NCBI RefSeq assembly: GCF_009856365.1
Contig: NZ_WMEX01000001.1
Span: 62,001-126,000, forward strand
Direction: 5' to 3'
Length of the DNA: 64,000 bases
Source of the DNA: Vreelandella halophila
GTDB lineage: Bacteria; Pseudomonadota; Gammaproteobacteria; Pseudomonadales; Oleiphilaceae
Part shown: positions 10,179 to 50,159 of the stretch, piece by piece
Layout of the letters: the number at the start of each line of letters is the position of its first letter
Position numbering within the stretch: position 1 is the first letter of the stretch
Position numbers and translations under genes: made by a program
Notes under the pieces: model-generated
Seen by the model: only the letters and a program-made list of their open reading frames with translations
Database searches by the model: none
What the model was told of the DNA's origin: nothing

Positions 10179-10179
10179 G

Positions 10180-13729: not shown

Positions 13730-13744
13730 GATGACTCCTGGTGA

Positions 13745-14188
13745 TCAGTGGCTGTTATGGCCGGCTGTGCCGTCCGGGGCCCGGATGTCCAGCTGGGCCT
13801 CACGGGTTTCGCCGTTGCGGAATTCGAGGGTCAGCGACCTTGTGTCGCCTTCGGTCAGTGGCTCATCCAGCCCCTTGATCATGAGATGGAGGCCCATGGG
13901 CGCGAGTTCAACCGCCGCGCCCGGCTCCAGTGTCAGCCCCTCGGGCAGGGCCTGCATCCGCATCTGGCCGTCCACCTCCCGGGATTCGTGGATCTCGACG
14001 CTGTCCGCCCAGTCCGCTGTTCCGCCGGTCAGGGTGCGGGCCTGTTTGCCGTCGTTGTGCAGTGTCATGTAACCGGCGCCCCGGTCGATCCCGGGCGGGG
14101 TGGCGCGGGCCCAGGGGGTCTCGATGCGGATCTCCGCGGAGGCGGCGCTGGCGCCCGCCGCCAGCATCAATACCAGAAACGCGAGCAT
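13745..14188 (-). CDS. Periplasmic copper chaperone PCu(A)C (DUF461)
   Basis: A ~147-residue secreted protein. A signal peptide (MLAFLVLMLAAGASAASA) precedes a cupredoxin-like domain with the PCu(A)C copper pattern, seen as HESREVDGQMRMQAL followed about 20 residues later by MGLHLMIKG. Such proteins bind Cu(I) in the periplasm and pass it to cytochrome oxidase (CuA site), often with a Sco protein; no sco gene is here. The frame stays open upstream through three REP-like units, but that extension only encodes repeat. The ATG at 14188, just before the signal peptide, is therefore the credible start. The repeats end about 8 bp before this start, so little room is left for a native ribosome site. 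Confidence 0.85.
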   Translation of the reverse strand: MLAFLVLMLAAGASAASAEIRIETPWARATPPGIDRGAGYMTLHNDGKQARTLTGGTADWADSVEIHESREVDGQMRMQALPEGLTLEPGAAVELAPMGLHLMIKGLDEPLTEGDTRSLTLEFRNGETREAQLDIRAPDGTAGHNSH

Positions 14189-21959: not shown

Positions 21960-24900
21960 ATGGCGGTAACCGCAGTACGGGACAGGATCCTGACGTATCT
22001 GCTCGGAGTCAGTCTGCTGGTTCCGGTGGTGGCAGCGGGGGCGGAAAACAGTGGCTTTGCCCAGTCACCGCTGTTCCTGAATGAGCCGGCGGCGGACAGC
22101 ATGGCGTTTGTGCTGGACGATTCCGCCAGCGCGGATTTTGAGCTGCAGGTTCCCGGCACCCGGCAGGGGGCCCTGGAGAGGGATGGCTTCAGCCGCTGGC
22201 TGGGGGAGCTTCTGGACGGCAGCGATGTGAATCTGTTCGAGTCGATCGCCCAGCCGCTGCTCCGCGATATCCGCTATGGGTACCTGTTCGAGCCGGGCCT
22301 GGCCGACACCTACGACGGCCGCCGCATCAATCCGGAATACCACGTCGTGCCCCCACTGGCGAAGTTCGGGTTCCTGCGCTCCGCAGCCTGGAACCCCCAG
22401 TTCTACAACCCCGGGGTGGATTACGAGCCCTGGCCCTACCCGGTTCCGGACGGAATGCACACAATGCCTCCGGCCAGCACCAGCGACCCGAAGCTGGACC
22501 CGCTGTATGGGCAGCGGATGAGCGAGATGCGCTCGGACAGCGGTTTCGCCAACTGGCTCAGGGATGGCGCTGATTTCCTCAGTGATGTGGAGTGCTTCCT
22601 GACCTCCTGGTTCACCGACTGTGAGGCGAACCGGCCCATGCTCGATGTGCAGTACCGGCCCTTCACGGTATCCGGTGAGCTGCGTGATGCGGTCAAGGGC
22701 GTACTGGACTCGGCGGGCACCTCGATCAAGGAGAGCACGCTGGGCCTCAGTCCCGGCTCGACATTCCTTGACCGGAGCGCCTGTGCGATTGATGAATTCC
22801 GCAATGACTTCGGCACCGTTGTGGGCGAAGAGACCCTGTTCAACCAGAACAGCGTCTGTATGCCGCATGTGCAGGCGAGTTACTACGTGCCCCAGAAGAC
22901 CGGCTCCTACCGCTGGGAGGGCGACCTTTTCGGTGTTCTCGGAGAAGGGGAGTGCGGCAGCCGGCAAAGTGATGACTTTGTTGAGTTCATCGAGAACTTT
23001 GACCAGGAGGCACTGCGGTTCGAGGACGCGCAGGGTAACCAGTTCCCCGGAGCCCTGGCTCCTGACGGCACCTGCCTGCGGCGGGTGAACCTGAGCGATC
23101 CGGATGCCGTCCGGGACCTTGTGCAGGAACGCTACGGCCGCACCTACGAGGAAGAACTCCAGAACTTCGCCAACTGGTTCACCTACCACCGGCGCCGCCA
23201 CCAGTCCCTGAGGGCGGCACTGGGGGAGACAGCGGTGCGGGTGGATAACCTGCGTGGGATGCCGGTGCTCACCAACAGCGCCTCCGGGGACCTGCCCCTT
23301 TACGACCTGCAGGACCGTTCCGGGAACGGCGGGCTGGACCGGTTCCTGGCGCAGATCTACACGGGTTATAACGGCGCTACGGATGAGCGGACAGCGCCCC
23401 TGCGCAGCACCCTCAATCACGTCGGGGAGCAGTTTGAGCGCAGCGACGACAATGCCCCTGTGACCGCCTCCTGCCAGCAGAACATCGCGGGCCTGTATTC
23501 GGACGGCTACAGCACCGATGGCACAGTCAGTGCCGTGGGCAATGCCGATGGCGGCGCTGGTGGGCCCTTTTCCGACGGGGCCAGGGGAACCCTGGCCGAC
23601 GTTGCCTGGAACTATTACGACGAGCTTGAGGTCCCCGGCCTGGAAAACGGCAATGTGCCGGTTCCGGATGCCTGCAGTGAGCGTAACCCAGCGGGCTGGC
23701 TGGACTGCAACCGCGACCTCCACCTCAACACCTTCGGGGTGACCACCGGCCACCAGGGCGCCAATGTCTGGGGCTGGCCGATGCCCGGCACGGACGATGG
23801 CTATGAGCGGCGCAGGGATGCGCACCAACAGCCACCCCAGTGGTGGCCGGTCTCCACGGATCGCCCGGGAGATAACCCCGGCAGCGCCGCCCAGCGGGAT
23901 GATCTCTATCACGCTGCGACCAATGGTTTCGGGGAACTGTTCAGTGCGGATGATGCCGTGAACGCAGCCTCTTCGCTCAACAATGCCCTCAACCGCCCCA
24001 GCACCCTCAACGCCTGGGAGTCCGCCGCAACGCCCGAGGCGGTTGAGATCTCGCAGCGCGAAGGGCTGGTCTACAGCGCCTCCTTCAATCCCCGTGACTG
24101 GGAAGGTCGACTGACCGCCCGGCGCGCGGATCTCACCGCGACGGACAGTGACGACCCGCAGGACCAGGTCCTGGGGGAGGTCCTGTGGGATGCGGGCACG
24201 GTCCTGGATGAGCGCAATCTCCAGAGCAACCCGCGTACCATCCTCACGGCCGGTGCCGACGGGGAACCCGTGGCGTTTGAGCCGGACAACCTTGATCAGC
24301 TGCCCGATGAGGCCCGGGCCGATCTGAGCGCTGGCGGCGACCGTGCCACCGCCGAGGATCGCATTGCGTACCTGGCGGGCCGGCGCAACCTTGAGGGGGA
24401 ACGGTTCCGCGAGCGCGGCGGCCGTCTGGGCGATATTGTCCACTCGAATCCGGTCCATGTGGGGCGGCCCGCCATGGGGTGGCCGGACGAGGCCCCCTAC
24501 GGCACGGAAGATGACCGCTACTCGGATTACCTGGCCGCCCAGAGGGACCGGGAGCGCACCATCTACGCGGGTGCCAATGACGGCATGCTGCACGCCTTTG
24601 ACGGCACCCCGGATGACTCCGGCGGTGGCGAGCGCTTTGCCTATATCCCGTCCTTCGCCTTTGATGACGCGGAAAGCCGCGGCTTCAGCTACCTCACGTC
24701 ACCGCAATACCAGCACCGCTACAGCGTGGATCTGGCGCCGGCGGTCTCCGATGCCCACATCCAGACGGATCCGGATGCCGGCCCTGAATGGCACTCGGTG
24801 CTGGTGGGCGGCATGCGCACCGGTGGCCGGGGCCTGTTCGCACTGGATGTCACGGATCCCGATGTGGCCAGCTCCGACTCGCCCGAGGACCTGCTCCTGT

Positions 24901-25964
24901 GGGAGTTCCAGCATCAGGACCTGGGGACCCTGAACAAGCCCGTGAACATCGTGCTCATGCCCTGGGATGACGGCCACGAGTGGGTGGCCGTGTTCGGCAA
25001 CGGCTACAACGCGCCCAGTGGCCGTTCCGGCGTCTTCATGCTGCGGCTGGAGGGCGGCCTGGACGGCGAATGGAGCCGGGGCACGGATTACCGCTTCATC
25101 GAGACCGGCGGCGATGGGCTGCCGGGCGTGACCTCGGACGTGACGCCAGTGGATACCGATCGCGACCGGGTTCCGGACCGGCTCTATGCCAGCGACCGCG
25201 AGGGCCGTATCTGGGTCCTGGTGGAGAACAGTGGCAGCTGGGTCGCGAAAGACGAGCCCCTGTTCCGCACTCCGGGAGGCCAGCCGATCACCACCGGCGT
25301 GACGGTGACCGGCAACCGCTTTGTGCCGGACGAGGACAGCAATGCCCCGAACCTGCTGGTGTTCTTCGGCACCGGCCAGTACCTGAGCACCGGTGACCTG
25401 AGCGACACCACCACCCAGTCCTTCTACGGGGTCTGGGACCATGGCGGGACAGGGATCAACGCGGATCAGCTGCAGGTGCAGGATCTGACCGAATCCGTGG
25501 CCGGGCAGACCCGCACCCGCAGCCTCAGCGGCGATGAAGTGGCCTGGGGCCGGAATCCCACGGATGACCACGGCTGGTACTTTGATTTCGATACCCGCAT
25601 CGGTGAACGGGTGGTGGAGCGGCCAAGGCTGCGCAACGGTCAGCTGCGGTTCAATACCACCATACCGGAGACGGATCCCTGTTCCGCCGGTGGCAGCAGC
25701 TTCCGCATGTTCGTGGACCTGGACGGCTCCAACCCGGACGAGCCGAACGTGGACGATGACAATGACGGGGAGCTGGAGGATGAGCCCAGCGCGGGTACCG
25801 AGCATGATGACGGCCTGCTCAGCGGTGGCAGTGGCCTGCTGGACGTGCAGGTGGACAATGCCACGGATGAGGAAAAGGATGAGGAGACCCGGATCACCCG
25901 GACCAGCGAACCCGCCATCCGGCGTGGCCGGCTGGGCTGGCAGGAGCTGGTGCGCCCGCGCTGA
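21960..25964 (+). CDS. pilY1: Type IV pilus tip adhesin PilY1
   Basis: A 1334-residue secreted protein. A signal peptide (about 1-28) leads into a variable N-terminal half. The C-terminal half (about 830-1260) is the PilC/PilY1 beta-propeller, with repeated blocks such as YAGANDGMLHAFDG and WVAVFGNGYNAPSG. A calcium-binding loop is visible as DTDRDRVPDRLYASD (about 1064-1078), which in Pseudomonas PilY1 controls extension and retraction. Another acidic Asp-rich run lies near 1260-1285. No clear von Willebrand A domain was recognised in the N-terminal half. It ends the minor pilin operon; no pilE follows. It acts at the pilus tip and outer membrane in adhesion and surface sensing. Confidence 0.92.
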   Translation: MAVTAVRDRILTYLLGVSLLVPVVAAGAENSGFAQSPLFLNEPAADSMAFVLDDSASADFELQVPGTRQGALERDGFSRWLGELLDGSDVNLFESIAQPLLRDIRYGYLFEPGLADTYDGRRINPEYHVVPPLAKFGFLRSAAWNPQFYNPGVDYEPWPYPVPDGMHTMPPASTSDPKLDPLYGQRMSEMRSDSGFANWLRDGADFLSDVECFLTSWFTDCEANRPMLDVQYRPFTVSGELRDAVKGVLDSAGTSIKESTLGLSPGSTFLDRSACAIDEFRNDFGTVVGEETLFNQNSVCMPHVQASYYVPQKTGSYRWEGDLFGVLGEGECGSRQSDDFVEFIENFDQEALRFEDAQGNQFPGALAPDGTCLRRVNLSDPDAVRDLVQERYGRTYEEELQNFANWFTYHRRRHQSLRAALGETAVRVDNLRGMPVLTNSASGDLPLYDLQDRSGNGGLDRFLAQIYTGYNGATDERTAPLRSTLNHVGEQFERSDDNAPVTASCQQNIAGLYSDGYSTDGTVSAVGNADGGAGGPFSDGARGTLADVAWNYYDELEVPGLENGNVPVPDACSERNPAGWLDCNRDLHLNTFGVTTGHQGANVWGWPMPGTDDGYERRRDAHQQPPQWWPVSTDRPGDNPGSAAQRDDLYHAATNGFGELFSADDAVNAASSLNNALNRPSTLNAWESAATPEAVEISQREGLVYSASFNPRDWEGRLTARRADLTATDSDDPQDQVLGEVLWDAGTVLDERNLQSNPRTILTAGADGEPVAFEPDNLDQLPDEARADLSAGGDRATAEDRIAYLAGRRNLEGERFRERGGRLGDIVHSNPVHVGRPAMGWPDEAPYGTEDDRYSDYLAAQRDRERTIYAGANDGMLHAFDGTPDDSGGGERFAYIPSFAFDDAESRGFSYLTSPQYQHRYSVDLAPAVSDAHIQTDPDAGPEWHSVLVGGMRTGGRGLFALDVTDPDVASSDSPEDLLLWEFQHQDLGTLNKPVNIVLMPWDDGHEWVAVFGNGYNAPSGRSGVFMLRLEGGLDGEWSRGTDYRFIETGGDGLPGVTSDVTPVDTDRDRVPDRLYASDREGRIWVLVENSGSWVAKDEPLFRTPGGQPITTGVTVTGNRFVPDEDSNAPNLLVFFGTGQYLSTGDLSDTTTQSFYGVWDHGGTGINADQLQVQDLTESVAGQTRTRSLSGDEVAWGRNPTDDHGWYFDFDTRIGERVVERPRLRNGQLRFNTTIPETDPCSAGGSSFRMFVDLDGSNPDEPNVDDDNDGELEDEPSAGTEHDDGLLSGGSGLLDVQVDNATDEEKDEETRITRTSEPAIRRGRLGWQELVRPR

Positions 25965-27163: not shown

Positions 27164-28636
27164 TTATGCCTCACAGGTTGGCCGGGTTCTCAGTCTCAGC
27201 CAGGCCCGGATCCGGCGTGACAGGGCATCCACCCCGATGTTGAGCAGGGCCGTGATCAGGATCAGCACCATGGCCCGGTCAAAACGGATCTCCTGGATGG
27301 CGCCCTCCACGTAGAAGCCCAGTGTGGTGATGCCGAGAATGCCCAGGATGGCCGTTTCGCGCATGATGATCTCCCAGCGGTAGAACAGGAACGCCAGGAA
27401 GGGGGGATAGACCCTGGGGACCAGCTCCCAGGCATAGCGGTTGAAGCCGATGGGCGCGCCCTTGCGCAGGGGCACCTCATCGCTCATGCGGCCCACCAGA
27501 TGGCCGATGATGCCACCGTTGTGCAGGGCCAGCGCCACAACTGCGGGCAGCATGGAGGGGCCCCAGAGCTGGAGCAGGAGATAGGCCAGCATGTACTCCG
27601 GTGTGGAACGGGCAATGACCAGCAGCACATGGCCGCTGGTACGCCGTACCGGCCCGGTGAAATGCGTGGAAATCAGCGGGAAAGCCAGCAGTGCCAGAAC
27701 GCCCGTGGCCACCAGTGCCATCTGGGTCAGCAGCAGGGTGTTCCAGATGCCGGGCAGGGCCTGGTTGGCCAGTATCTCCGTGAGCCAGGGCTGGAGCCCC
27801 TCCCAGCCTTCACCCTCGCGCAGGGGGCGGGGCACGATGTCCTGGGTCACGAAGCGGGTCACGTTGCCCCAGATGATGGGCAGCCCCTCCCCCAGGAAGA
27901 ACGGGGCAGCCAGCAGGTAGACGGGCACCAGCCGCGGCCGGAGCCAGAGCCGCATGGTGGCGATCAGCACATAGAACACCAGCAGCAGCGCGCCCACCTG
28001 GGAGTAATACCCCTGGGAGAACGCCGCCTCCAGGTGGAAGCCCAGTGTGGGCAGCCCAATGAAGCCGAGTATGGCGGATGAGCGCAGGCCACACTCCAGG
28101 CGGTAGGCGGTGTAGGTGCGCAGGTGTGGCCAGGCCTCGGGCACCTGGGTGAAGAAATAGCGCAGCAGGCGGCGGGTGTTCTTCGGAGCCGCCCTCGCCG
28201 GCAATGGGTCCGCCTCATCGATGATCTCCGAATAGACCTTGGCGAAGATCCCGGCAAAGGGAATGGCGATGGCCAGAACCCCGGACAGCGGGTGGATCCC
28301 AAAGCACTGCAGGAAGATCAGCGCCCAGAAGATCTCATGGATCGAGCGGATGAAGGCGCAGAACGCCCGCACCAGACGGGAGGAGAAAAGGGTGGTCAGC
28401 AGGAAGCCGATCACCGCGCCCAGCGCGACCCCGGTAAAGGCGTAGGCCAGGGTGCGTGTGAACGCGGTGAACAGCTCGTTCGTGGCCGTGAGATCCGGTG
28501 TGACCAGCCCGTACAGCAGCCGCTGCAGCTCCTGCCAGGGGTTGAGCGTGGTGATCGCCAGGTCCGAGAACGGCAGGCAGGCCAGGGCCACGCCGATGAA
28601 TGCCAGGGTTGTGAGGCCGGTGCGGGATCGAAGCAT
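27164..28636 (-). CDS. ABC transporter permease, two fused PhnE-like domains
   Basis: A 490-residue inner-membrane protein with about 12 helices made of two binding-protein-dependent permease domains in tandem (about 20-260 and 285-485). Coupling-loop regions are recognisable near IPFAGIFAKVYSEIIDEADP and GGIIGHLVGRMSDEVPL. This fusion of two PhnE-type units in one chain differs from the usual homodimeric PhnE. It starts 1 nt after the ATPase gene and is the last gene of the substrate-binding protein-ATPase-permease operon. The divergent selenium genes suggest the substrate is a selenium oxyanion instead of phosphonate. Confidence 0.85.
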   Translation of the reverse strand: MLRSRTGLTTLAFIGVALACLPFSDLAITTLNPWQELQRLLYGLVTPDLTATNELFTAFTRTLAYAFTGVALGAVIGFLLTTLFSSRLVRAFCAFIRSIHEIFWALIFLQCFGIHPLSGVLAIAIPFAGIFAKVYSEIIDEADPLPARAAPKNTRRLLRYFFTQVPEAWPHLRTYTAYRLECGLRSSAILGFIGLPTLGFHLEAAFSQGYYSQVGALLLVFYVLIATMRLWLRPRLVPVYLLAAPFFLGEGLPIIWGNVTRFVTQDIVPRPLREGEGWEGLQPWLTEILANQALPGIWNTLLLTQMALVATGVLALLAFPLISTHFTGPVRRTSGHVLLVIARSTPEYMLAYLLLQLWGPSMLPAVVALALHNGGIIGHLVGRMSDEVPLRKGAPIGFNRYAWELVPRVYPPFLAFLFYRWEIIMRETAILGILGITTLGFYVEGAIQEIRFDRAMVLILITALLNIGVDALSRRIRAWLRLRTRPTCEA

Positions 28637-28637
28637 G

Positions 28638-29288
28638 TCAGTAGAGCGGCTGCAGGTCGGCGGCTGTCAGTCGGGCGCTGGGTTCATCCAGGGCGATGTG
28701 GCCGTCCTGTATACCGATGATCCGGTCGGAGAAGGCCAGGGCCAGCTCCACATCGTGCAGAGCGATCACCGACGTGGGGTAAGCCTCTGTCAGGGCCGCC
28801 ATGACGCGCCGTGCCAGCGGGCCGTCCAGCGCGGAGACCGGCTCGTCCGCCAGCAGCAGGCTGCCCTGCTGGTAAAGCGCCCGTGCCACCGCCACGCGCT
28901 GGCGCTGGCCACCGGACAGTTCACCGGCGGGTTCGCGCAGCTTATCCCCGAGCCCGAGCCTATCCAGGATACCCTGAACCTCGCCCCTGGGCTTTTTCAG
29001 GGGGAACAGCAGGTTGCAGAGGCTGTAGAGGGTGGTGTGGCGGTCCAGCTGCCCCATGTAGACGTTGTGGAATACCGACAGCGTATCCACCAGCCCAAGG
29101 TCCTGGGGCATGTAGGCCGTGCCGGATTCCGCCTCGTCGTAGAGCAGGCTGAGCAGTGTGGACTTGCCGGCACCGCTGCGGCCAACCAGCGCTACACGCT
29201 CCCCGGATGCCAGGCTGAGTGAGAGCGGGCCGAGAACCCGCTCTCCTCCATAGCTGGCGGAAAGGTCATTGACGGCCAGTATCGCCAT
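28638..29288 (-). CDS. ABC transporter ATP-binding protein, PhnC-like
   Basis: A 216-residue ABC ATPase with Walker A GRSGAGKST, signature LSGGQRQRVAVARAL, Walker B LLADEPVSALD and the H-loop VIALHDVELAL. Shorter than many PhnC proteins but complete. It overlaps the stop of the binding-protein gene by 1 nt (TGATG) and is followed after 1 nt by the permease, so the three are one translationally coupled unit. It powers import of the substrate delivered by the binding protein. Confidence 0.92.
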   Translation of the reverse strand: MAILAVNDLSASYGGERVLGPLSLSLASGERVALVGRSGAGKSTLLSLLYDEAESGTAYMPQDLGLVDTLSVFHNVYMGQLDRHTTLYSLCNLLFPLKKPRGEVQGILDRLGLGDKLREPAGELSGGQRQRVAVARALYQQGSLLLADEPVSALDGPLARRVMAALTEAYPTSVIALHDVELALAFSDRIIGIQDGHIALDEPSARLTAADLQPLY

Positions 29289-30145
29289 CAGTCGAGCAGA
29301 CCCGTTTCCCTGCCAACCCGCTTGATGGTCGCGTAATCGTCGTTGCTGGCGGGGATGAACGAGGAGCGCGGGAAGCTTTCCAGCAGCTCCGGATCCTCCA
29401 TGTTCAGCAGCGCCTGCTGGACCCGGTCGCTGAAGCCATCGCCGAAACGTTCATCGACGTCACCCCGGATGGTCCACTGGTAATCCGGATAGGTGGGCGA
29501 TTTCCAGATCACCTGGACGTCGTCGGTATCAATCTCACCGTTCTCGACCATTTCTTCCCAGACGCTGTAGTTCAGCGCGCCCACCAGGTAGGAGCCGGAT
29601 TCCACCAGGCGTGCGGTGCGGGTATGGTTACCGCTGAAGCCGACGCGACTGAAGACCTCTCCCGGCGCCTGGTTGAAGCGTTCGCGGATATAGTGCTCCG
29701 GCATCAGGCGCCCGGAGGTGGAACCGCGTGAACCGAAGGTCAGGGTCTTGCCCTTCACCGCTTCCGGGAGCTTGCCGTCGGAGGGTTCAATGCCGGTGCT
29801 TTCATGGGCGATGAAATAGCTGCGGAACTCCTGGTCTTCCGCCCCCTGGGCGATGGCCTTCGAGCCCGGCACTGCTTCGCGGGCACGCACGCCGGAAAGG
29901 CCGCCGAACCATGCCAGCTGCACCTGGTTGTTGCGGAAGGTGGTTACTGAGGCCGCGTAGGATTTGACCGGGACGAACTGCACCGGTACGTCCAGCTCCG
30001 ACTCCAGATAGTTCGCGACTTTGGAAAAACGTTCTTCCAGGCTGGTTTCGTCCTGGTCCGGGATGGCGGTGAAGTACAGTGTCGGCGCCGCCATGGCCGG
30101 CGTTGCCATAATCAGGGCCGTAAGCAGGCCGGTTATCCATCGCAT
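29288..30145 (-). CDS. PhnD-type periplasmic binding protein, putative selenium oxyanion transporter
   Basis: A 285-residue periplasmic binding protein. A signal peptide (MRWITGLLTALIMATPAMAA) precedes a PhnD-like type 2 fold with FTAIPDQDETSLEERF near the N-terminus and the ligand loop FGSRGSTSGRLMPEHY. A strong AAGGAGA lies before this ATG; the open frame extends far upstream through repeats and the antisense of senB, which is not coding. From memory, NCBI distinguishes a PhnD-like family called putative selenate ABC transporter substrate-binding protein, often next to selD and senB-type genes. Here it diverges from senB, so selenate or selenite uptake is the best guess. A phosphonate role is less likely because no phn catabolic gene is present. 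Confidence 0.78.
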   Translation of the reverse strand: MRWITGLLTALIMATPAMAAPTLYFTAIPDQDETSLEERFSKVANYLESELDVPVQFVPVKSYAASVTTFRNNQVQLAWFGGLSGVRAREAVPGSKAIAQGAEDQEFRSYFIAHESTGIEPSDGKLPEAVKGKTLTFGSRGSTSGRLMPEHYIRERFNQAPGEVFSRVGFSGNHTRTARLVESGSYLVGALNYSVWEEMVENGEIDTDDVQVIWKSPTYPDYQWTIRGDVDERFGDGFSDRVQQALLNMEDPELLESFPRSSFIPASNDDYATIKRVGRETGLLD

Positions 30146-30235
30146 TGTTCTGTCTCCTTGATTACTGTCGTGTCGAAGGTAACGTAAGGTTCTACGTGTG
30201 GCGCGATACCAGCGTTCATCGGCGCCCCCACTAAT

Positions 30236-30324
30236 CTGTAGGAGCGGCCATGGCCGCGATCCCGTTACCCAGAGCCACAAGCCCCGGCACGGGCTCGCGC
30301 TCGCGGCCATGGCCGCTCCTACAG
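30236..30324. repeat. REP-like inverted pair, GGCCATGGCC variant
   Basis: Left arm TAGGAGCGGCCATGGCCGCG and its inverted copy enclose about 43 bp between the divergent transporter and senB starts. The right arm ends only about 16 bp before the senB start, immediately before its ribosome site, so the senB leader begins in or passes through the repeat. Confidence 0.85.
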
Positions 30325-30340
30325 CAGGAGGTCGAGTATC

Positions 30341-31321
30341 TTGCACATCACGCTGATCACCCCCGCCCCGCGCGGTTCCCGCGCGGGCAACCGGGCCACC
30401 GCCGAACGCTGGGCCCGCCTGCTGCGGGCCTCCGGGCACCGGACGCGCATTATAACGGAATACGACGCCGAACCCACGGACCTGCTGGTGGCTCTCCACG
30501 CCTGGCGCAGCAGTGAGTCGGTGCGCCAATACCGGGCGCATACCCCCTCGGGGCCCCTGATTGTGGCGCTCACCGGCACGGATATCTACCGCTTCCAGCA
30601 GACACACCCGGAGGCCACCCGTTACAGCATGGCCGAGGCGGATGCCCTGATCGGGCTGCATGAGCGGGTTGCGGATGACATCCCGAGAGAATTCCATAAT
30701 CGTCTCCATACCATCTTTCAATCGGCGGAACCACTGCCCAGCCGCAGGGCTCCGGTACAGTCCCGGTTCGACGTGGTGGTTATCGGCCACCTGCGTGACG
30801 AGAAGGACTCCCTGCGCACCGCCTGGGCCGCCCGCCAGCTGCCGCAGGAGTCGCGGCTCAACGTGATCCAGCTCGGCCGGGCTCATGATGACGAGTGGCA
30901 GGCCCTGGCGGAGCAGGAAGCCCGGGAGAATCCGCGCTTCGACTGGAAGGGGGAGCTGCCCCGCTGGCAGGTGCGCCGGCACATGGCGAAGGCGCGGCTG
31001 ATGGTGATCAGTTCGGTGATGGAAGGCGGTGCCAATGTGGTCTCCGAGGCCTGCGTGGCCGGCCTGCCGGTGATCGCCTCGGATATTCCCGGCAACGTGG
31101 GGCTGCTCGGCGGGGACTATCCCGGGACCTATCCAGTGGAGGACACCACCGCGCTGCGCGAGCAGCTTCTGCGCGCCGAAAACGAGCCGGAATTCCTGGC
31201 GGCTCTGCAGGGCCGCGTTGAGGCCCGGGCGCCCCTGTTCCGGCCGGAAGCCGAACAGGCTGCCCTGGAACGGGTGGTCAATGCGGTCATGGACCAATAC
31301 GGTAAAGAGAATCAAACGTAA
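30341..31321 (+). CDS. senB: Selenosugar synthase SenB (glycosyltransferase fold)
   Basis: A 326-residue GT-B fold protein of the family previously annotated only as a putative glycosyltransferase near selD. The N-terminus TPAPRGSRAGNRATAERWA is the hallmark of SenB. The C-terminal half carries a GT4-like motif, SSVMEGGANVVSEACVAG. SenB was shown in the selenoneine pathway to form a C-Se bond between selenophosphate and a UDP-sugar, giving a selenosugar donor. The start codon is TTG at 30341, chosen because AGGAGG sits 9 nt upstream. Neighbours are the C-Se synthase, its methyltransferase and SelD, which together make the assignment strong. Cytoplasmic. Confidence 0.9.
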   Translation: MHITLITPAPRGSRAGNRATAERWARLLRASGHRTRIITEYDAEPTDLLVALHAWRSSESVRQYRAHTPSGPLIVALTGTDIYRFQQTHPEATRYSMAEADALIGLHERVADDIPREFHNRLHTIFQSAEPLPSRRAPVQSRFDVVVIGHLRDEKDSLRTAWAARQLPQESRLNVIQLGRAHDDEWQALAEQEARENPRFDWKGELPRWQVRRHMAKARLMVISSVMEGGANVVSEACVAGLPVIASDIPGNVGLLGGDYPGTYPVEDTTALREQLLRAENEPEFLAALQGRVEARAPLFRPEAEQAALERVVNAVMDQYGKENQT

Positions 31322-31345
31322 CCGCCTGGGTGATGCAACATACCC

Positions 31346-31418
31346 CTGTAGGAGCGCCCCTCGCGCGCGATAGTCTGCGCGATCCGGGGCGCGATCGCGA
31401 GCAGGGCTCGCTCCTACA
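31346..31418. repeat. REP-like inverted pair between senB and the C-Se synthase gene
   Basis: A GTAGGAGCGCCCCTCGCGCGCGAT arm variant (about 31348-31371) and an opposed GATCGCGAGCAGGGCTCGC arm (31393 onward) lie in the senB-ovsA gap. Confidence 0.8.
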
Positions 31419-31453
31419 ACACAACACGCGATCATTGACGGAGAACGCACGGG

Positions 31454-32800
31454 ATGAACGACCGCGAAAGCCTGATCCACGCCCTACACCATACCCGGGA
31501 CCGCGTTAAGGACCTGGTCTGCAGCCTGCGCGAGGACCAGCTCAGCGTTCCCTACCACCCGGGCGTGAACCCGCCCGTCTGGGAAATGGGCCACTCGACC
31601 TTCTTCTACGAGGTGTTCGTCCTCAACTGGCTGGACGGCACGCCCAGCTACGATCCCTCAATGGACGAGCTCTGGGACTCCTTCCACATGGACCACGAGG
31701 ACCGCTGGTCGAAGACGCTGTTCCCTTCGCGCGAGGACACGCTCACCTACATGGACACCATCATCCAGCGCATGGAGGACCGCATCCGCAACCAGCCGCT
31801 CACGGATGAGGCGCTGTACCTGTACCGCTACGCCATCTACCACCAGAACATGCACGTGGAGTCCATGACCTGGTGCCGCCAGACCGTGGGTTACCCGGCA
31901 CCGCCGTTCGCGGAGCCCAAAGGGCTGACCGGGGAAGGCGTTGACCAGGATGCGCGCGGCGACGTCACCATTCCCGCCGGCCGCTACCTCATTGGCCTGC
32001 CGGCGAACCGGGATTCGGACGCCTACGCCACCGAGGACTTCGGCTTCGACAACGAAAAGCCCGCCTTTGAGGTGGACATGCCGGAGTTCAGCATCTCCCG
32101 GACCCTGGTGACCAACGGTGAGTTCCAGAAGTTCGTGGAAGAGGGCGGTTACGAGCGCCCTGAGTTCTGGAGCCAGGGGGGACGCAAGTGGCTGGAGCGT
32201 GAGATCAACCTGAACTTCGGCACTGGCGAGCCGCCGCTGATGGGCACCCAGACGCAGCCGTTCCACTGGCGCAAGCGCGATGGCCGCTGGTACGAGCGGG
32301 TCTTTGACCAGTGGCTGCCGCTGGAGCCGGGGCATCCGGTGAAGCAGATCAGTTACTGGGAGGCGGAGGCGTTCTGCGCCTGGGCCGGGCGGCGGCTGCC
32401 GAGCGAGTACGAGTGGGAAGTGGCAGCCCTCGCCAACAAGCCGGGGGAGGAACGCCGGCGTTATCCGTGGGGTAATGAGATGGATCCGGCGAAGCTGGAT
32501 ATGGACCAGCGCTACATGGGCCGTGTGCCGGTGACGGCGTTCCCGGCGGGTGAGAGTCCCTTCGGGTGCCGGCAGATGCTGGGCACGGTCTGGGAGTGGA
32601 CGGGCAACCATTTCATGCCCTATGACGGTTTCTCGGTGGATATGTATCCGTTCATGTCGACGCTGCAGTTCGCGACGCACAAGACCACCAAGGGGGGTGG
32701 TTGTGCGGCGTCGTCCATGCTGATCCGTGGGACTTACCGGCAGGCGTATCATCCGGATCGGTGTGATGTTTATACCGGCTTTCGTACCTGCGCTCTGTAG
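31454..32800 (+). CDS. ovsA: Non-heme iron C-Se bond-forming synthase, OvsA/SenA-like
   Basis: A 448-residue protein of the EgtB/OvoA/SenA superfamily. An N-terminal DinB-like helical domain (about 5-150) supplies an iron-binding three-His set, visible as H47 (EMGHST), H130 and H134 (YHQNMHVE). A C-terminal formylglycine-generating-enzyme-like domain (about 168-448) ends GFRTCAL. Cysteines lie at 372, 417, 437 and 446. SenA puts selenium on hercynine (giving selenoneine), whereas OvsA puts selenium directly on histidine (giving ovoselenol). Ovoselenol is favoured because a separate OvoA-type methyltransferase follows and no EgtD histidine methyltransferase is seen. The final CTG-TAG comes from a REP-like unit that starts there. 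GGAG lies about 10 nt before the ATG. Confidence 0.8.
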   Translation: MNDRESLIHALHHTRDRVKDLVCSLREDQLSVPYHPGVNPPVWEMGHSTFFYEVFVLNWLDGTPSYDPSMDELWDSFHMDHEDRWSKTLFPSREDTLTYMDTIIQRMEDRIRNQPLTDEALYLYRYAIYHQNMHVESMTWCRQTVGYPAPPFAEPKGLTGEGVDQDARGDVTIPAGRYLIGLPANRDSDAYATEDFGFDNEKPAFEVDMPEFSISRTLVTNGEFQKFVEEGGYERPEFWSQGGRKWLEREINLNFGTGEPPLMGTQTQPFHWRKRDGRWYERVFDQWLPLEPGHPVKQISYWEAEAFCAWAGRRLPSEYEWEVAALANKPGEERRRYPWGNEMDPAKLDMDQRYMGRVPVTAFPAGESPFGCRQMLGTVWEWTGNHFMPYDGFSVDMYPFMSTLQFATHKTTKGGGCAASSMLIRGTYRQAYHPDRCDVYTGFRTCAL

Positions 32801-32875
32801 GAGCGTTTGTTCCTCCTGTAGGAGCTTGCTTGCAAGCGATACCCGAGACCATCGCGAGCGAGCTCGCTCCTACAG
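32795..32875. repeat. REP-like group overlapping the ovsA stop
   Basis: A unit beginning CTGTAGGAGC supplies the last codon and TAG stop of the preceding gene. It is followed by TAGGAGCTTGCTTGCAAGC and an opposed TCGCGAGCGAGCTCGCTCC arm, filling most of the gap before the methyltransferase. Confidence 0.85.
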
Positions 32876-32904
32876 ATTGACCGCATTGATTTTGGGGTTT
32901 CTGG

Positions 32905-33648
32905 ATGACGGATTTCTACGAGACGGATGAACAACTGGGCCAGTACATGGACTTCCATTACGGCCCAAAGCACTTCGGCGTACCGAACTTCCCGAAAGCC
33001 TGTGCCGAGCGCTGTCTGCAAGCCAAGCCCCGGGGCGAGCGCGCCCTGGACCTGGGCTGTGCCACCGGGCGCAGTACCCTGGAGCTGGCCAGAGGGTTTG
33101 GGCATGTGCTGGGCATGGACCTCTCGCACCGGTTTATTGATGCGGCGGAGCGGCTGCGCCGGGATGGGGAGCTGAGCTACCAGCTGGTGGATGAAGGCGA
33201 GATCGGTCACCAGGAGACCGCGTCCCTGGCCGAGCTCGGGCTGGCCGGGGAAGCCGCGCGGGTGTCGTTCGAGGAGGGCGATGCGGGCAATCTGGGGCCG
33301 GAGTACAGCGGCTATGACCTGATCTTCGCTGGCAACCTGATCGACCGCATGCCGAATCCGGGGCCGTTTCTCGGTGGGCTTAGGGCGCGCCTGAATCCGG
33401 GCGGGGTGCTGGTGGTGACGTCGCCCTACACGCTGTTGGCCGAGTTCACGCCGCGCGACAGCTGGATCGGTGGGTACTACGGTGCCGATGGTGAGCCGGT
33501 GACGGTGCTGGATGGCATGCGGGCCCACCTTGAGCCTGGCATGCGGCTGGCCGCCGAGCCCGAGGACGTCCCCTTCGTGATCCGCGAAACGCGGCGCAAG
33601 CACCAGCATACCCTGGCCCAGTTGACTGTCTGGGGGCGGATGGATTGA
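32905..33648 (+). CDS. ovsM: OvoA C-terminal-type methyltransferase, OvsM-like
   Basis: A 247-residue class I SAM methyltransferase with motif I DLGCATGRST (about 49-58). The N-terminal signature YGPKHFGVPNFPKACAERC matches the C-terminal domain of OvoA, the 4-mercaptohistidine N1-methyltransferase of ovothiol synthesis. Here it is a stand-alone protein and the upstream synthase lacks a fused copy. In the ovoselenol pathway a methyltransferase of this kind methylates the imidazole of selenohistidine. The neighbours senB, ovsA and selD support that substrate over a thiol. Weak ribosome site (GGGG). The next gene is convergent after 6 bp. Confidence 0.82.
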   Translation: MTDFYETDEQLGQYMDFHYGPKHFGVPNFPKACAERCLQAKPRGERALDLGCATGRSTLELARGFGHVLGMDLSHRFIDAAERLRRDGELSYQLVDEGEIGHQETASLAELGLAGEAARVSFEEGDAGNLGPEYSGYDLIFAGNLIDRMPNPGPFLGGLRARLNPGGVLVVTSPYTLLAEFTPRDSWIGGYYGADGEPVTVLDGMRAHLEPGMRLAAEPEDVPFVIRETRRKHQHTLAQLTVWGRMD

Positions 33649-33654
33649 GTCCGC

Positions 33655-34236
33655 TCAGAAAGGCCAGTTCGTAACCAGAAGGTAGAGGGCCCCGGCGGCC
33701 GCGAGGCCGGCCCCGATGATGACAAGCCCGTCGCGGGTGCTGATGCCGATGGCGGCCAGGGAGATCGCCAGTGCGGGAGCGGCGGCCGCGAAGGGGATCA
33801 GTTCCAGCGGGATCATCGTCAGCCCGGACACCGCGCAGGCCAGGAAGATGAGGCTGTTGGCCCAGGGGTGGGTGAGCAGTGACAGTCGGTGTGAGAACAG
33901 GCGGTCGATCCGGCGGGTCACGGGCTGGGCCCGGTCGATGGCGCGGATCAGGTTCTGCCTGTGGATGCTGAGTTCGCGCAGACGCCGGGGCACCCAGGGG
34001 GAGCGCCGGCCCAGGCTGCCCTGAATGGCGATCAGGAAGATCAGGATGCCGCAGACGCTGGGTACGCCCGGTATCGCGCCGGTGGGCAGGAGCGCGAGCA
34101 GTGCCGGGGCCAGCAGCAGTGGACCGAAGCCGCGGGATTCCAGGGCGGTGATGAGCGTGTCCACCGGCACCTGTTCCGTGGTCGTCTGCTCACGGACCCT
34201 CAGGAGGACATCCGTGATCCCCATTGATTGGCTCAT
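33655..34236 (-). CDS. ExoD-family membrane protein
   Basis: A 193-residue protein with about four hydrophobic segments and the ExoD pattern (GPLLLAPALLALLPTGAIPGVPS, then a loop and two further helices). ExoD was named from exopolysaccharide and alkali-sensitivity phenotypes in rhizobia; its biochemical role is unknown. It lies between the methyltransferase and selD but on the minus strand, and no mechanistic link to selenium is evident. Two ATGs (34236, 34224) are possible, neither with a good ribosome site. Confidence 0.82.
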   Translation of the reverse strand: MSQSMGITDVLLRVREQTTTEQVPVDTLITALESRGFGPLLLAPALLALLPTGAIPGVPSVCGILIFLIAIQGSLGRRSPWVPRRLRELSIHRQNLIRAIDRAQPVTRRIDRLFSHRLSLLTHPWANSLIFLACAVSGLTMIPLELIPFAAAAPALAISLAAIGISTRDGLVIIGAGLAAAGALYLLVTNWPF

Positions 34237-34322
34237 GCCGGCAACCGTGCTCCACCCCAGTGACTATGCGGGAATCCTACACGTTTTGGATCGCCGGAGC
34301 ATGAGTGGTCCATTAACAGCCC

Positions 34323-36596
34323 TCAGGGATTGAGAAGGATCGGCTCCAGCGCCTCGCCCTGTTCCTTTACTCGGCCGATGATGGCCGTCTCCGGGTACCC
34401 CAGGGCCTTCAGTTCGGCCACACAGGCGTCCGCCTGGTCCGCCGGCACGCTCGCCAGCAGGCCGCCGGCGGTCTGGGGGTCGAAGGCCAGCGGGTAGCGA
34501 GGATGGTTCACCACCTCCTCCTGGTTGCGGATGGCGCGGCGCAGGCGCACGTTGGCCGGCTGCAGTGAGCTCAGGATGCCGGAGGCGGCGGTTTCCTCGG
34601 CGCCGGGCAGCACCGGTATGGCGCTCAGGTCCAGCTCCGCGTCCACGCCCGAGGGGCGGGTCATTTCCACCAGGTGGCCGAGCAGGCCGAAGCCGGTCAC
34701 ATCGGTGCAGGCCTGGGCGCCGTGTTCATGGATGCAGCGGGCGGCCTTCTGGTTGGAGACGAGCATGGAAGCCAGGGCCGAATCGATCCAGCGCCCCTTG
34801 GCCTCCAGGCGTGGATGGGCCGCGAACAGGGTGCCGGTGCCGACGGGCTTGGTCAGGATCAGCACGTCGCCGGGCTTCATGCCGCCCTTGCTCATGACGG
34901 TGTCCGGGTCGATGTAGCCGTTGGCGGCGAAACCCAGCGCCAGCTCCTTGCCCTCGCCGGTGTGACCGCCCACCAGCGCACAGCCGGCCTCGTTCAGGGT
35001 CTCCACGGCGCCGGCCATCATCTGGTAGACCACGTCCTCCACCTTGGATTCCAGCCCGTAGGGCACCGTGGCCACGGCGGTGGCGCTCTGGGCCTCGGCG
35101 CCCATGGCAAAGAGGTCCCCGAGGCTGTGGTTGGCGGCGACCTGGCCGAAGATGTAGGGGTCGTCGATGAAGGCGCGGAAGAAGTCCACGGTGTGCACCA
35201 TGGCCATGCCGTCCGGTACCCGCACCACGGCGGCGTCGTCCGGCGCATGGAGGCCCACCAGGACGTCGTCGCGCTCAATGGGCTGGAGGCTGTTCAGGGC
35301 TCGCGAGAGCACGGTGCTGCCGACCTTGGCACCGCAGCCGCCGCAGCGCATGGCCACGGCGGAGATGGCCTGCTGGGCCTCTTCACTGCTCAGTGCGATG
35401 CCCGAGGTGGGGTCGTCCTTGCTGTCCTCGCTCATGGCCGGGAGGTTGTTGAACTTCGCCATGAAGCGCCGGTCGATCCAGTCCTTCCAGCGCCAGACCC
35501 ACTCGCCCGCAACCCCGAAGGACCCGCGCGAGGCCACGGCGTACTGGTCGCCGGTGCTGATCAGGGCCAGCCACTGTTTCTGCGGGTGGTAGTCCTTCAG
35601 TGCCTTGCCATGCACGGCCCGCCGCAGGTTCTCGGCCAGCGGTTTGCCCTGGCGCACGGCAAAGACCCCTGCCTTCTCGCGCGGGTGATTGACCATGGTG
35701 GCGATGTCGCCGGCGGCGAAGATGTTGGGGTCCGTCACCGTCTGCAGGGTGTCGCGAACCCGGATGAAACCGCCGTCGTCGAGTTCCAGCCCGGTGCCGG
35801 TCAGCCATTCCGCGCCGCCGGCCTGGGTGACCCAGAGGACTTCGTCCGCCTCGAAGGTCGCGCCGCTGGAAGCCACCAGCTGGCGGTCGTTAACCTGCTC
35901 AATCCGCGTTCGTTCGTGAACATTCACGCCCCTTTCCTGCAGAACGGACTCGAAACGGCGGCGAACGCTGCTGTTGTGCGTGGGCAGGAGCTGATCAGAA
36001 GCATTGAAGAGGTGGAAACGGGCTGCCTCCGGGTCCTTGCCCATGGCGCCCAGCTCATTGCGCAGGCGGTACTGCATGGCCAGCGTCAGTTCCACGCCCC
36101 CGGCACCGCCGCCAACCACGGCCACATTGAGCTCGCCCTCGTGGTTCTCCATGCGTTCGAGCAGGGTCTGCCAGCGGTTGTTGAAGCGGTTGATGGGCTT
36201 GACCGGGACGCTGTGGTCCTCGGCCCCGGCGACCTGGTCGACCCGTGGTGTGGAGCCGATGTTGATGGAGAGCAGGTCGTAGGGAATGGCCGGGCGGTCG
36301 CGACAGATGACGCGCTGGTTGGTGCGGTCGATGTCGATGGCTTCGCTGCGGTAGAAACGGGCACCGGCGAATTCGGCCAGGCGGCTGAGGTCGATGTGGA
36401 CGTCGTCGTAGCTGTAGTGGCCGGCGATGTAGCCGGGGAGCATGCCGGAGTAGGGGGTGTGGGTGTCGCGGCAGATGAGGTTGAGGCGCACGCCCGGGAT
36501 GGGGTTCATGGCGAAGTTGCGCAGTACGCCGACGTGGCTGTGGCCACCTCCGATGAGGACGATGTCGCGGAGTACTGGCTGGTCTGGTTGGTCCAT
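34323..36596 (-). CDS. selD: Selenide, water dikinase fused to an FAD-dependent oxidoreductase (SelD/SenC)
   Basis: A 757-residue fusion. Residues 1-385 form an NDH-2-like pyridine nucleotide-disulfide oxidoreductase with FAD motif IVLIGGGHSHVG (12-23), a second dinucleotide motif VVGGGAGGVEL (160-170) and IFAAGDIATM. Residues 412-757 are SelD: C421 and K424 in CGGCGAK are the usual Cys/Lys pair, with APDDAAVV, GGHTGEGKEL and FDPQTAGGLLAS. It makes selenophosphate from selenide and ATP; the oxidoreductase half may generate or channel selenide. The ATG at 36596 is chosen for AGAGGT upstream; the longer open frame runs into repeats. It is convergent with the sen/ovs genes and probably serves them (SenC role). 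No selA, selB or mnmH lies in the window. Confidence 0.92.
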   Translation of the reverse strand: MDQPDQPVLRDIVLIGGGHSHVGVLRNFAMNPIPGVRLNLICRDTHTPYSGMLPGYIAGHYSYDDVHIDLSRLAEFAGARFYRSEAIDIDRTNQRVICRDRPAIPYDLLSINIGSTPRVDQVAGAEDHSVPVKPINRFNNRWQTLLERMENHEGELNVAVVGGGAGGVELTLAMQYRLRNELGAMGKDPEAARFHLFNASDQLLPTHNSSVRRRFESVLQERGVNVHERTRIEQVNDRQLVASSGATFEADEVLWVTQAGGAEWLTGTGLELDDGGFIRVRDTLQTVTDPNIFAAGDIATMVNHPREKAGVFAVRQGKPLAENLRRAVHGKALKDYHPQKQWLALISTGDQYAVASRGSFGVAGEWVWRWKDWIDRRFMAKFNNLPAMSEDSKDDPTSGIALSSEEAQQAISAVAMRCGGCGAKVGSTVLSRALNSLQPIERDDVLVGLHAPDDAAVVRVPDGMAMVHTVDFFRAFIDDPYIFGQVAANHSLGDLFAMGAEAQSATAVATVPYGLESKVEDVVYQMMAGAVETLNEAGCALVGGHTGEGKELALGFAANGYIDPDTVMSKGGMKPGDVLILTKPVGTGTLFAAHPRLEAKGRWIDSALASMLVSNQKAARCIHEHGAQACTDVTGFGLLGHLVEMTRPSGVDAELDLSAIPVLPGAEETAASGILSSLQPANVRLRRAIRNQEEVVNHPRYPLAFDPQTAGGLLASVPADQADACVAELKALGYPETAIIGRVKEQGEALEPILLNP

Positions 36597-47834: not shown

Positions 47835-48019
47835 CTGTAGGAGCGAGCCCTGCTCGCGAAACCCCAGGGATCGCTTGCAGGGCAAGCTCCTACAGTCTCG
47901 GGGCCCTCGTCATCTGTAGGAGCGAGCCCTGCTCGCGATAGGCCGGGATCGCTTGCGAGGCAAGCTCCTACAGTCTTGGAATCCTCGTCCCCCCGTAGGA
48001 GCGAGCCCCGCTCGCGATA
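47835..48019. repeat. Array of REP-like units, the last before the polysaccharide cluster
   Basis: Two head-tail pairs (47835-47895, 47914-47973) and a final single head (47993-48019) fill the 376-bp gap upstream of the WbpM-like gene. No further units were found from here to the end of the window. Confidence 0.85.
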
Positions 48020-48075
48020 TTACAGAAAAGTGACCAATGGAACCGACGCAGGTTCGAGGCAAAATTCGGGGTTAC

Positions 48076-48084
48076 TGGTACACT
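48076..48084 (+). promoter_or_regulatory. Possible extended -10 promoter of the polysaccharide cluster
   Basis: TGGTACACT is an extended -10 element (TGnTAnnnT) about 30 bp before the WbpM-like start; no good -35 is visible at the normal distance. Confidence 0.35.
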
Positions 48085-48113
48085 CTTGTGAATTAGTCAC
48101 AGGACCGGGCCCC

Positions 48114-50093
48114 ATGTTCAGACGCATCACTTACCTGTTCAGGCATGTCTTTTCACAGTTCGCCGCGCTGGATCGGCCACAGAAGCGTCTGGTTTCCGCC
48201 ATATCGGATGCCGTGTTTATCATGCTCTCGCTTTGGGCGGCTTTTTCGTTGCGGTTGGAGACCTTCTTTCGCCCTGAAGACCCCGGTTACTGGGTGCTGT
48301 TTCCCGCGATTGCCATCGTCACCGTATTCCTGTTTGGCAGACTTGGACTTTACCGGGCCATCATCCGGTACCTCAGTGAGCGTGCCCTGCTTACCGTCCT
48401 TGCGGGGGTGACAGGCTCCGCTCTGCTTCTGATCGCCGGTGCTTTCATGCTGCGGGTCGAGCTGCCCCGCTCGGTCCCATTCCTCTATGGCGCCTTCACC
48501 TTCCTGTTTGTGACAGGGACCCGCTTCGGTGTTCGCCGGTTGCTCAACCGTCCCAGACACTTCGGGAAAATGCCTGTACTCATCGTGGGCGCAGGCGAAA
48601 CCGGTTTTCAGCTGGCTTCCGCGCTCAATCAGGGCATTGAGTACCGGCCGGTGGCTTTCATTACCCTGGAGCCGGACAATCACAAGACCACGATCAATGG
48701 TCTGCCCGTCTACGATCTGGAACATGTCCGCAAGGCCGTCGCCAAGCATCAGGTCAAGCGGATCCTGCTCGCCATTGATGAAAACGCCACGGTGGAGCGG
48801 CGTGAGATTCTCCGCGATCTTGAAGGCCTCCCGGTGCCCGTCCAAACGGTTCCCCCGGTCACGGAACTGGTGACAGACAGGGCGCGTATCACTGATGTGC
48901 GTGATCTTGATGTTGAGGATCTACTGGGCCGTGAGCCCGTTCGCTACCGCAATGAGCACTTGGCGGAGTCGTTGAGTGGGCGAGTGGTCATGGTCACTGG
49001 TGCGGGCGGCTCCATCGGCTCTGAGCTGTGCCGACAGATCCTCCGCCAGGGCCCTGCTGGCCTGGTCCTTTTCGAGCAGTCTGAATACGCGCTCTACCGT
49101 ATTGAGCGAGAACTCCAGAGTATCCGTGATAAAGAGCATATCGCGGTATCCATTCACCCGTTGCTGGGCAGTGTTATCCACCGGCGGCGGTGTGAAAGTG
49201 TGATCCGCGCTCTGGGGGTCAGTGTTGTTTACCACGCGGCAGCTTACAAACATGTGCCGCTGGTGGAGCAGAACGTTATCGAGAGTGTACAGAACAACGT
49301 GTTCGGTACCTGGTATACGGCGGAGGCTGCCATTGCCGCTGGGGTGGAGAAGTTTGTGCTTGTTTCCACGGATAAGGCCGTAAGGCCCACCAACATCATG
49401 GGAGCAAGCAAGCGGCTGGCGGAACTCGTTCTGCAGGGGCTGGCCCAACGTCAGGGTAAGACGGTCTTTTCCATCGTGCGCTTCGGGAACGTGCTTGGCT
49501 CGTCTGGTTCCGTCGTCCCGCTGTTCCGGGAACAGATCCGTAATGGTGGCCCTGTGACCGTTACCCACCCGGATATCACCCGCTATTTCATGACGATCCC
49601 TGAGGCAAGCCAGCTTGTACTGCAGGCGGGAACCATGGGTGAGGGTGGTGAAGTGTTCGTGCTGGATATGGGGCAACCCGTGCGCATTGCGGAACTGGCG
49701 CGGCGGATGATCCATCTCATGGGGCTGACCGAGAAGAGCGAGGATAACGAGCACGGCGACATTGAGATCATTTTCAGTGGCCTGCGCCACGGCGAGAAGC
49801 TCCACGAAGAGCTTTTAATTGGTGATGATCCCCGGGGCACGGAGCACCCGCGCGTTATGAAGGCTCGCGAGAGCTCGATGGAATGGTCCCAGCTCGAAGA
49901 ACTACTGGAAGAACTGATGCTGGCCAGTCAGGGTTTTGACTGCCACCGTGTTGTAGAGCTTCTGAAGGCCGCTCCAACGGGGTACCAGCCCAATCACGAC
50001 GTGCAGGACATCGTATGGTCTAATGGTGGCAATGCCCTTCCCATGAGTAATGCAGCTGACATCAGCGACACCATCCGCCGCATCTTCGGGTGA
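48114..50093 (+). CDS. WbpM/CapD-type nucleotide-sugar 4,6-dehydratase
   Basis: A 659-residue membrane enzyme. Four transmembrane helices (about 28-140) lead to a first Rossmann-like domain (VLIVGAGETGFQLASAL, about 154-170) and a catalytic extended-SDR domain with TGAGGSIGSEL (about 293-303) and STDKAVRPTNIMGASKR, the modified active site of WbpM-type UDP-GlcNAc C6-dehydratases. It starts synthesis of deoxy-amino sugars for O-antigen or capsule. The start at 48114 is chosen over earlier in-frame codons that lie in repeat DNA; AGGA is about 11 nt upstream. First gene of the polysaccharide cluster. Confidence 0.9.
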   Translation: MFRRITYLFRHVFSQFAALDRPQKRLVSAISDAVFIMLSLWAAFSLRLETFFRPEDPGYWVLFPAIAIVTVFLFGRLGLYRAIIRYLSERALLTVLAGVTGSALLLIAGAFMLRVELPRSVPFLYGAFTFLFVTGTRFGVRRLLNRPRHFGKMPVLIVGAGETGFQLASALNQGIEYRPVAFITLEPDNHKTTINGLPVYDLEHVRKAVAKHQVKRILLAIDENATVERREILRDLEGLPVPVQTVPPVTELVTDRARITDVRDLDVEDLLGREPVRYRNEHLAESLSGRVVMVTGAGGSIGSELCRQILRQGPAGLVLFEQSEYALYRIERELQSIRDKEHIAVSIHPLLGSVIHRRRCESVIRALGVSVVYHAAAYKHVPLVEQNVIESVQNNVFGTWYTAEAAIAAGVEKFVLVSTDKAVRPTNIMGASKRLAELVLQGLAQRQGKTVFSIVRFGNVLGSSGSVVPLFREQIRNGGPVTVTHPDITRYFMTIPEASQLVLQAGTMGEGGEVFVLDMGQPVRIAELARRMIHLMGLTEKSEDNEHGDIEIIFSGLRHGEKLHEELLIGDDPRGTEHPRVMKARESSMEWSQLEELLEELMLASQGFDCHRVVELLKAAPTGYQPNHDVQDIVWSNGGNALPMSNAADISDTIRRIFG

Positions 50094-50131
50094 CGATTTC
50101 TCCACGTGACGGTCAGCCGCCTGGGTTGTCC

Positions 50132-50159
50132 TTGCGGTCTGTGTTCTGTGACGTACAAT
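50132..50159 (+). promoter_or_regulatory. Candidate sigma-70 promoter
   Basis: TTGCGG (50132-50137) and TACAAT (50154-50159) with a 16-bp spacer lie about 45 bp before the first glycosyltransferase start. Confidence 0.45.

Follow-up and report, generated by a model that had tools for sequence, protein, structure and literature searches.

The pathway to ovoselenol (N-methyl-5-selenohistidine) was reportedly described by Kayrouz et al. in Nat Chem in 2024, with its selenoxide chemistry and the methylation of 5-selenohistidine. SelD makes selenophosphate, SenB joins selenium to a uridine diphosphate (UDP) sugar, and OvsA couples the selenosugar to histidine C5 via a selenoxide intermediate; the ovothiol pathway, like that of ovoselenol, involves 5-position chemistry on histidine. 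Here we analyzed a 64,000-nucleotide stretch of Vreelandella halophila (contig NZ_WMEX01000001.1, positions 62,001 to 126,000, assembly GCF_009856365.1), hereafter the window, in which eight genes at 27164–36596 almost certainly make up, judging from the proteins they encode, an ovoselenol locus of the Vreelandella utahensis/Halovibrio type. The pathway itself is already known, as OvsA and OvsM have solved structures under those names (8u41, 8u42, 8ux5 and 9bxh), and in this respect the original prediction overrated the novelty of the locus. Ovoselenol is also cited as characterized in bacteria in a passage of PMC13188914.

The genes of the locus are as follows (bit scores are given with the model cut-off).

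27164..28636, minus strand: phnE-like ATP-binding cassette (ABC) permease of 490 residues, with two PhnE-type stretches in one chain (TIGR01097, 210.7 bits, just under the cut-off of 216.7)
28638..29288, minus strand: phnC-like ABC ATPase (PF00005, 3e-24; best NCBIfam model TIGR02315, 165.2 bits, under the cut-off of 266.1)
29288..30145, minus strand: periplasmic binding protein (sbp), proposed to bind selenite (TIGR04553, 404.6 bits, cut-off 250; PF12974)
30341..31321, plus strand: senB, selenosugar synthase (Se-glycosyltransferase; TIGR04348, 420.5 bits, cut-off 300; solved relative SenB 8fbx, E 1.3e-46)
31454..32800, plus strand: ovsA, selenoxide synthase predicted to form the C–Se bond on histidine (8 differences in 448 residues from OvsA 8u41; OvsA clade)
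32905..33648, plus strand: ovsM, predicted 5-selenohistidine N-methyltransferase (TIGR04345, 276.9 bits, cut-off 170; best solved relative OvsM 9bxh, E 4.9e-88)
33655..34236, minus strand: exoD-family membrane protein (PF06055)
34323..36596, minus strand: NADH-dehydrogenase-like/SelD fusion, selenide,water dikinase (TIGR03169, Nterm_to_SelD, 532.5 bits, cut-off 310; TIGR00476, 301.5 bits, cut-off 125)

The closest solved match of the synthase is "Selenoxide synthase OvsA" (8u41/8u42), with an alignment that spans the full length of the protein at 98% identity to 8u41. The same eight sites and letters distinguish it from the V. utahensis protein, indicating that 8u41 shows the V. utahensis protein or one identical to it letter for letter. 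The synthase combines PF12867 (DinB_2) and PF03781 (FGE-sulfatase) domains, and as a query against its own genome it returned a single match, with no second synthase of this kind. In a tree of 41 rows, with groups set beforehand from identity and open-frame length, it falls inside an OvsA group of ten rows (support 100/98) together with nine other OvsA proteins, and outside the 22-row SenA-like group (81/83), the seven EgtB rows (100/100) and the two OvoA rows (100/100). The phylogeny named as a check in the original prediction thus sides with it, as the synthase groups with neither EgtB nor OvoA. Profile scores agree, since the EgtB model TIGR03440 gives 259.7 bits (cut-off 360) and the OvoA N-terminal model TIGR04344 gives 115.9 bits (cut-off 400).

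Three active-site positions mark the same division. M401, Q430 and A431 are present in all ten OvsA rows and in none of the 29 SenA-like and EgtB rows of the 41-row alignment; the SenA-like proteins carry Y, then N or T, then F or Y at these sites. The OvsA variant solved as 8ux5 differs from 8u41 at these three positions only, where it has Y, N and F, changes that we read as a swap toward a SenA/EgtB-type pocket. H47, H130 and H134, which we take to be the ligands of a three-histidine iron site, are present in all 41 rows. The window synthase is OvsA, and formation of the C5–Se bond on histidine is its predicted activity.

A selenoneine locus, in which the synthase would be a SenA placing selenium onto C2 of hercynine, would share much with this arrangement: SenB and SelD are markers common to both pathways, the described selenoneine system (SenA, SenB, SenC/SelD; 8k5i, 8ryz, 8fbx) has a two-domain DinB_2/FGE synthase as well, and the same transporter–senB–selD module adjoins SenA-like synthases elsewhere (L189, L190, L193, L199). 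The SenA equivalog model NF041186 also accepts the window synthase, at 427 bits against a cut-off of 420. Seven of the nine OvsA proteins whose score was read singly pass this model as well (the window protein, L081, L082, L083, L091, L092 and L093, with L086 and L004 just under; the V. utahensis row is not among the nine), so that NF041186 fails to separate OvsA from SenA. Annotation based on it would label such OvsA proteins selenoneine synthases, and selenoneine makers would thereby be overcounted. The window synthase is only 39–44% identical to the SenA-like rows, an OvsM-like methyltransferase, which is additional to the selenoneine gene set, adjoins it, and no match to egtD (PF10017) was found in the window's own assembly (3.34 Mb, 19 contigs, 96.86% complete). 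On the tree, the active-site letters, the egtD search and the methyltransferase match together, we reject the selenoneine reading as highly improbable.

The methyltransferase is a stand-alone protein of the OvoA C-terminal type, encoded separately from the synthase and adjoining ovsA. Its family membership, together with the kinship of OvsM and OvoM, would also fit an ovothiol-type sulfur pathway, with cysteine as the substrate of the synthase and ovothiol as the product of the methyltransferase. Ranked against solved structures, it matches OvsM 9bxh (298 bits) above OvoA 8khq (256) and OvoM 9bxl (222). OvoA is a single fused chain where the window has two genes, its rows are distant in the synthase tree, and it is a distant match to the window synthase (94.6 bits); senB and selD moreover share the locus. 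With the tree, active-site letters, methyltransferase match and profile scores all pointing away from it, a sulfur pathway is rejected as less probable still than selenoneine.

Ovoselenol, which the original prediction had proposed from the stand-alone methyltransferase and the absence of egtD, is thus borne out by the near-identity to 8u41, the OvsM match, the OvsA clade and the egtD search. Several points nevertheless weigh against it. A formal annotation would read selenoneine, given that the curated SenA model accepts the protein; an egtD gene lying unseen in the missing part of the assembly is conceivable; neither a selenite reductase nor a selenoxide-cleaving enzyme was seen in the locus; and the pathway genes are often scattered in other genomes.

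In the proposed pathway, the PhnDCE-type importer would bring in selenite, which would be reduced to selenide elsewhere in the cell. From what is known of their families, SelD would convert selenide to selenophosphate, and SenB would combine selenium and a UDP-sugar into a selenosugar. OvsA, with an activity taken from the PDB name of its near-identical relative, would attach the selenosugar at histidine C5 by way of a selenoxide, and loss of the sugar would leave 5-selenohistidine. Methylation of a ring nitrogen by OvsM would then give ovoselenol, which presumably acts as a redox buffer. The window genome contains selU, and its best selB match (185.3 bits) lies under the cut-off of 242.25, suggesting that selenophosphate feeds ovoselenol and probably also 2-selenouridine in transfer RNA (tRNA), not selenocysteine.

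Uptake genes, senB, ovsA, ovsM and selD lie within one 9.4-kb block. The genes named in the original prediction are found at the place and on the strands it gave, with profile scores in agreement: phnE–phnC–sbp diverges from senB–ovsA–ovsM, which converges with exoD and the selD fusion. The permease and ATPase genes are one base apart, the ATPase and binding-protein genes overlap by one base, and 132 bases separate senB from ovsA and 104 bases ovsA from ovsM. For the binding protein, the most likely start codon is the ATG at 30145, ahead of a signal-peptide-like stretch. On the selD fusion, the "fusion, not SelD" model TIGR04369 scores below its cut-off (472.5 against 700). The order of the eight genes is identical in V. 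utahensis and Halovibrio salipaludis (L099, L100), suggesting that the arrangement is more than chance. An exoD-family gene was found in two of 80 other OvsA loci, those of the same two organisms, and was undetected in the remaining 78; a part for it in the pathway is doubtful. A shared operator was sought in the gap between sbp and senB and rejected, as an alignment of four genomes showed little in common besides a GGAGG-like stretch and the senB start. Rfam gave zero matches at gathering score in the window, and no tRNA was found in it.

Compared with the described OvsA/OvsM pathway, no essential difference was seen in the window other than that its genes stand in one block, whereas in Marinobacter they are mostly scattered. 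Marinobacter ATCH36, M. changyiensis and Tamilnaduibacter salinus carry transporter, senB and selD at one site and ovsA–ovsM at another. Scanning the ten-row OvsA alignment against genome contigs yielded 114 relatives; 80 were retained, and every one of these was examined, with flanks of up to 10 kb (less on some shorter contigs) and bit thresholds of our own. OvsM stood beside 33 of the 80 OvsA genes, and the stretch examined contained senB at 6 loci, a SelD match at 8 and the transporter at 4, indicating that the full block of the window type is rare in this set. One might suppose that OvsA loci without OvsM give only 5-selenohistidine. As a general rule this was rejected: 47 of the 80 loci are without OvsM in the stretch examined, yet a TIGR04345 methyltransferase over cut-off is present in all 50 genomes searched, including the 47 without a linked ovsM. 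In 46 of these 47 it is a frame of under 350 residues, and in one (G423) only an OvoA-type frame of 740 residues was found.

At four loci (L150, L165, L171, L172), OvsA adjoins a second, SenA-like synthase that shares about 39% identity with it, with no OvsM next door. In the L150 genome the second synthase carries the Y/N/F letters (row L073), and such clusters possibly, to go by these letters and proximity, combine selenoneine and ovoselenol chemistry. The hosts are symbiont and other uncultured gammaproteobacteria. In L150 a stand-alone SelD lies between the two synthases (10001–13831), and OvsM is about 23 kb off in that genome.

According to passages of two reviews, the later from May 2026, a (specific) high-affinity system for selenium transport has yet to be identified in prokaryotes (PMC9312934). 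The phnE–phnC–sbp transporter may be a dedicated selenium importer, and from its gene company and binding-protein family we predict a selenite importer. Its binding protein is over the cut-off of TIGR04553, a family of putative selenium-oxyanion binding proteins, with selD in the same locus. Co-occurrence was assessed in two samples, both including the window genome. Among 38 relatives, TIGR04553 is over cut-off in 15, selD in 26, selU in 27, senB in 11 and selB in 2. All 15 TIGR04553 relatives have selD and selU, 10 have senB and none has selB over cut-off, and in all 15 the gene lies at most about 5 kb from selD, senB or selU; in a 16th relative (G370) it is split between two contig ends, with one piece beside senB. 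Among 369 Gammaproteobacteria, TIGR04553 is found in 15 genomes, selD in 87 and senB in 23. Again all 15 have selD (hypergeometric 1.4e-10, and 5e-4 among the 38 relatives) and 10 have senB (Fisher 2.5e-10), all three values being uncorrected for kinship. Conversely, 13 of the 23 senB genomes are without a TIGR04553 protein over cut-off.

That the transporter is always linked to selenium genes was rejected. In the 369-genome sample only 8 of the 15 genes have selD or senB at a distance of about 10 kb or less (G000, G107, G126, G154, G209, G218, G266, G333); one is about 12 kb off (G247), three are more than 100 kb away (G137, G224, G272), and three are on other contigs, where distance cannot be judged (G038, G162, G346). 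The transporter is found next to senB and selD together with a senA-like synthase, next to ovsA, and next to selD where senB is not present; it thus appears to track selenium use, not one product.

The nearest solved relatives of the binding protein are PhnD1 of Synechococcus and Prochlorococcus (7s6g, 5lq5), which over the stretches tested pass the TIGR04553 cut-off themselves (337.6 and 300.8 bits). They bind phosphite, and phosphate more weakly, according to passages of PMC10284923 and PMC8786288; for four Synechococcus proteins, the former gives 6- to 52-fold tighter binding of phosphite. The linked transporter could accordingly carry phosphite, phosphonate or phosphate, and its place beside the pathway could be coincidental or have another cause. 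The six of 15 transporter genes in the 369-genome sample that are far from selD and senB, or on another contig, fit such a role. So does the pocket: the PhnD1 phosphate ligands Y44, S124, T125, S126, H156, D203 and Y204 are kept in all 15 selD-linked proteins, with D203 replaced by N in three, and among 18 distant proteins below the cut-off, 17 of which are without a selenium gene in the few kb fetched, Y44, the STS motif and H156 are found in all 18, Y204 in 16 and D203 in 12. The D/N exchange at 203 is also reported for picocyanobacteria in a passage of PMC10284923. We therefore rejected the idea that the pocket residues prove selenium binding; shared as they are with distant proteins, they are support, not proof, and do not tell the substrate. 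Against a phosphorus transporter stands the presence of selD in every TIGR04553 genome of both samples, set against 87 of 369 overall, and, among the relatives, of selU, with the gene always near a selenium gene. We regard phosphorus transport as unlikely, though it must be taken seriously.

The selenite oxyanion has three oxygens and closely resembles phosphite. This resemblance to the ligand of the PhnD1 pocket is why we propose selenite for the importer, and not the selenate already implied by the NCBIfam name of the TIGR04553 family. In the binding-protein tree, a selenium-linked clade of 28 rows is separated from PhnD1 by 0.97 changes per column, and PhnD1 attaches on the branch between this clade and the PtxB/distant side. 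It is sister to the clade by midpoint root only, a placement that bootstrap does not settle, and kinship alone thus does not assign its substrate. The notion that TIGR04553 is one selenium clade including PhnD1 was not borne out, as L194, L195 and L201, all over the cut-off, are placed on the distant side. Two below it (L215, L216) fall inside the main clade on very long branches. At L216 (3696–5589) the sub-cut-off binding protein directly adjoins a selU gene, and the selenium-linked family may thus be wider than the TIGR04553 model.

By extension, the orphan PhnDCE of Prochlorococcus and marine Synechococcus might be a selenite importer feeding the NADH-dehydrogenase-like/SelD fusion and 2-selenouridine synthase of these cells, with phosphite binding fortuitous. 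PhnD1 resembles the window protein in exceeding the TIGR04553 cut-off and in its pocket residues, and differs from it in its place between the selenium-linked clade and the distant proteins, in being published as a phosphorus binder, and in its neighbor. Passages of PMC5700983 describe PhnDCE as ubiquitous in Prochlorococcus, not phosphorus-responsive and unlinked to phosphite genes, with an in vivo function given as "unknown", and the argument for the extension also draws on the absence of the phosphite pathway from most Prochlorococcus and marine Synechococcus strains. PhnD1 is present in all 97 Cyanorak strains, and the authors of PMC10284923 resort to a phosphate role for it; the string "selen" does not occur in the main text of their paper. 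As excerpted, PMC1273633 reports an NADH-dehydrogenase-like N-terminal extension on the SelD homolog of Prochlorococcus and Synechococcus, and selD in all organisms with ybbB (selU), cyanobacteria included. We found no paper linking picocyanobacterial PhnDCE to selenium in the open literature searched. Two observations count against the extension: three Prochlorococcus genomes are listed with SelD and without other selenium traits in a part of PMC5029168, and phnD1 has tesA, and no selenium gene, as its conserved neighbor, according to a section of PMC10284923. The position of PhnD1 in the tree lowers our confidence further, and the combined proposal, that phnE–phnC–sbp is these bacteria's dedicated importer of selenite, not selenate, and that picocyanobacterial PhnDCE is another, is put forward tentatively, as possible and short of probable.

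Elsewhere in the window, a gene at 21960–25964 encodes 1334 residues, including a PilY1 beta-propeller domain (PF05567), and lies next to an HD-domain gene on the opposite strand (PF13487; 25968–27089). The region at about 48000–63100 encodes glycosyltransferases, methyltransferases, export-type ABC ATPases and a mannose-1-phosphate guanylyltransferase/isomerase, and looks like a surface-polysaccharide locus. Past position 54000 the G+C content drops from about 0.65 to 0.46–0.50, and this region was perhaps acquired.

The ovoselenol locus is a compact, complete addition to a described pathway, and the transporter matters more. As an importer candidate it gives a sharp test, selenite versus phosphite binding, and the same binding test could decide what an orphan transporter of very abundant marine photosynthetic cells does.

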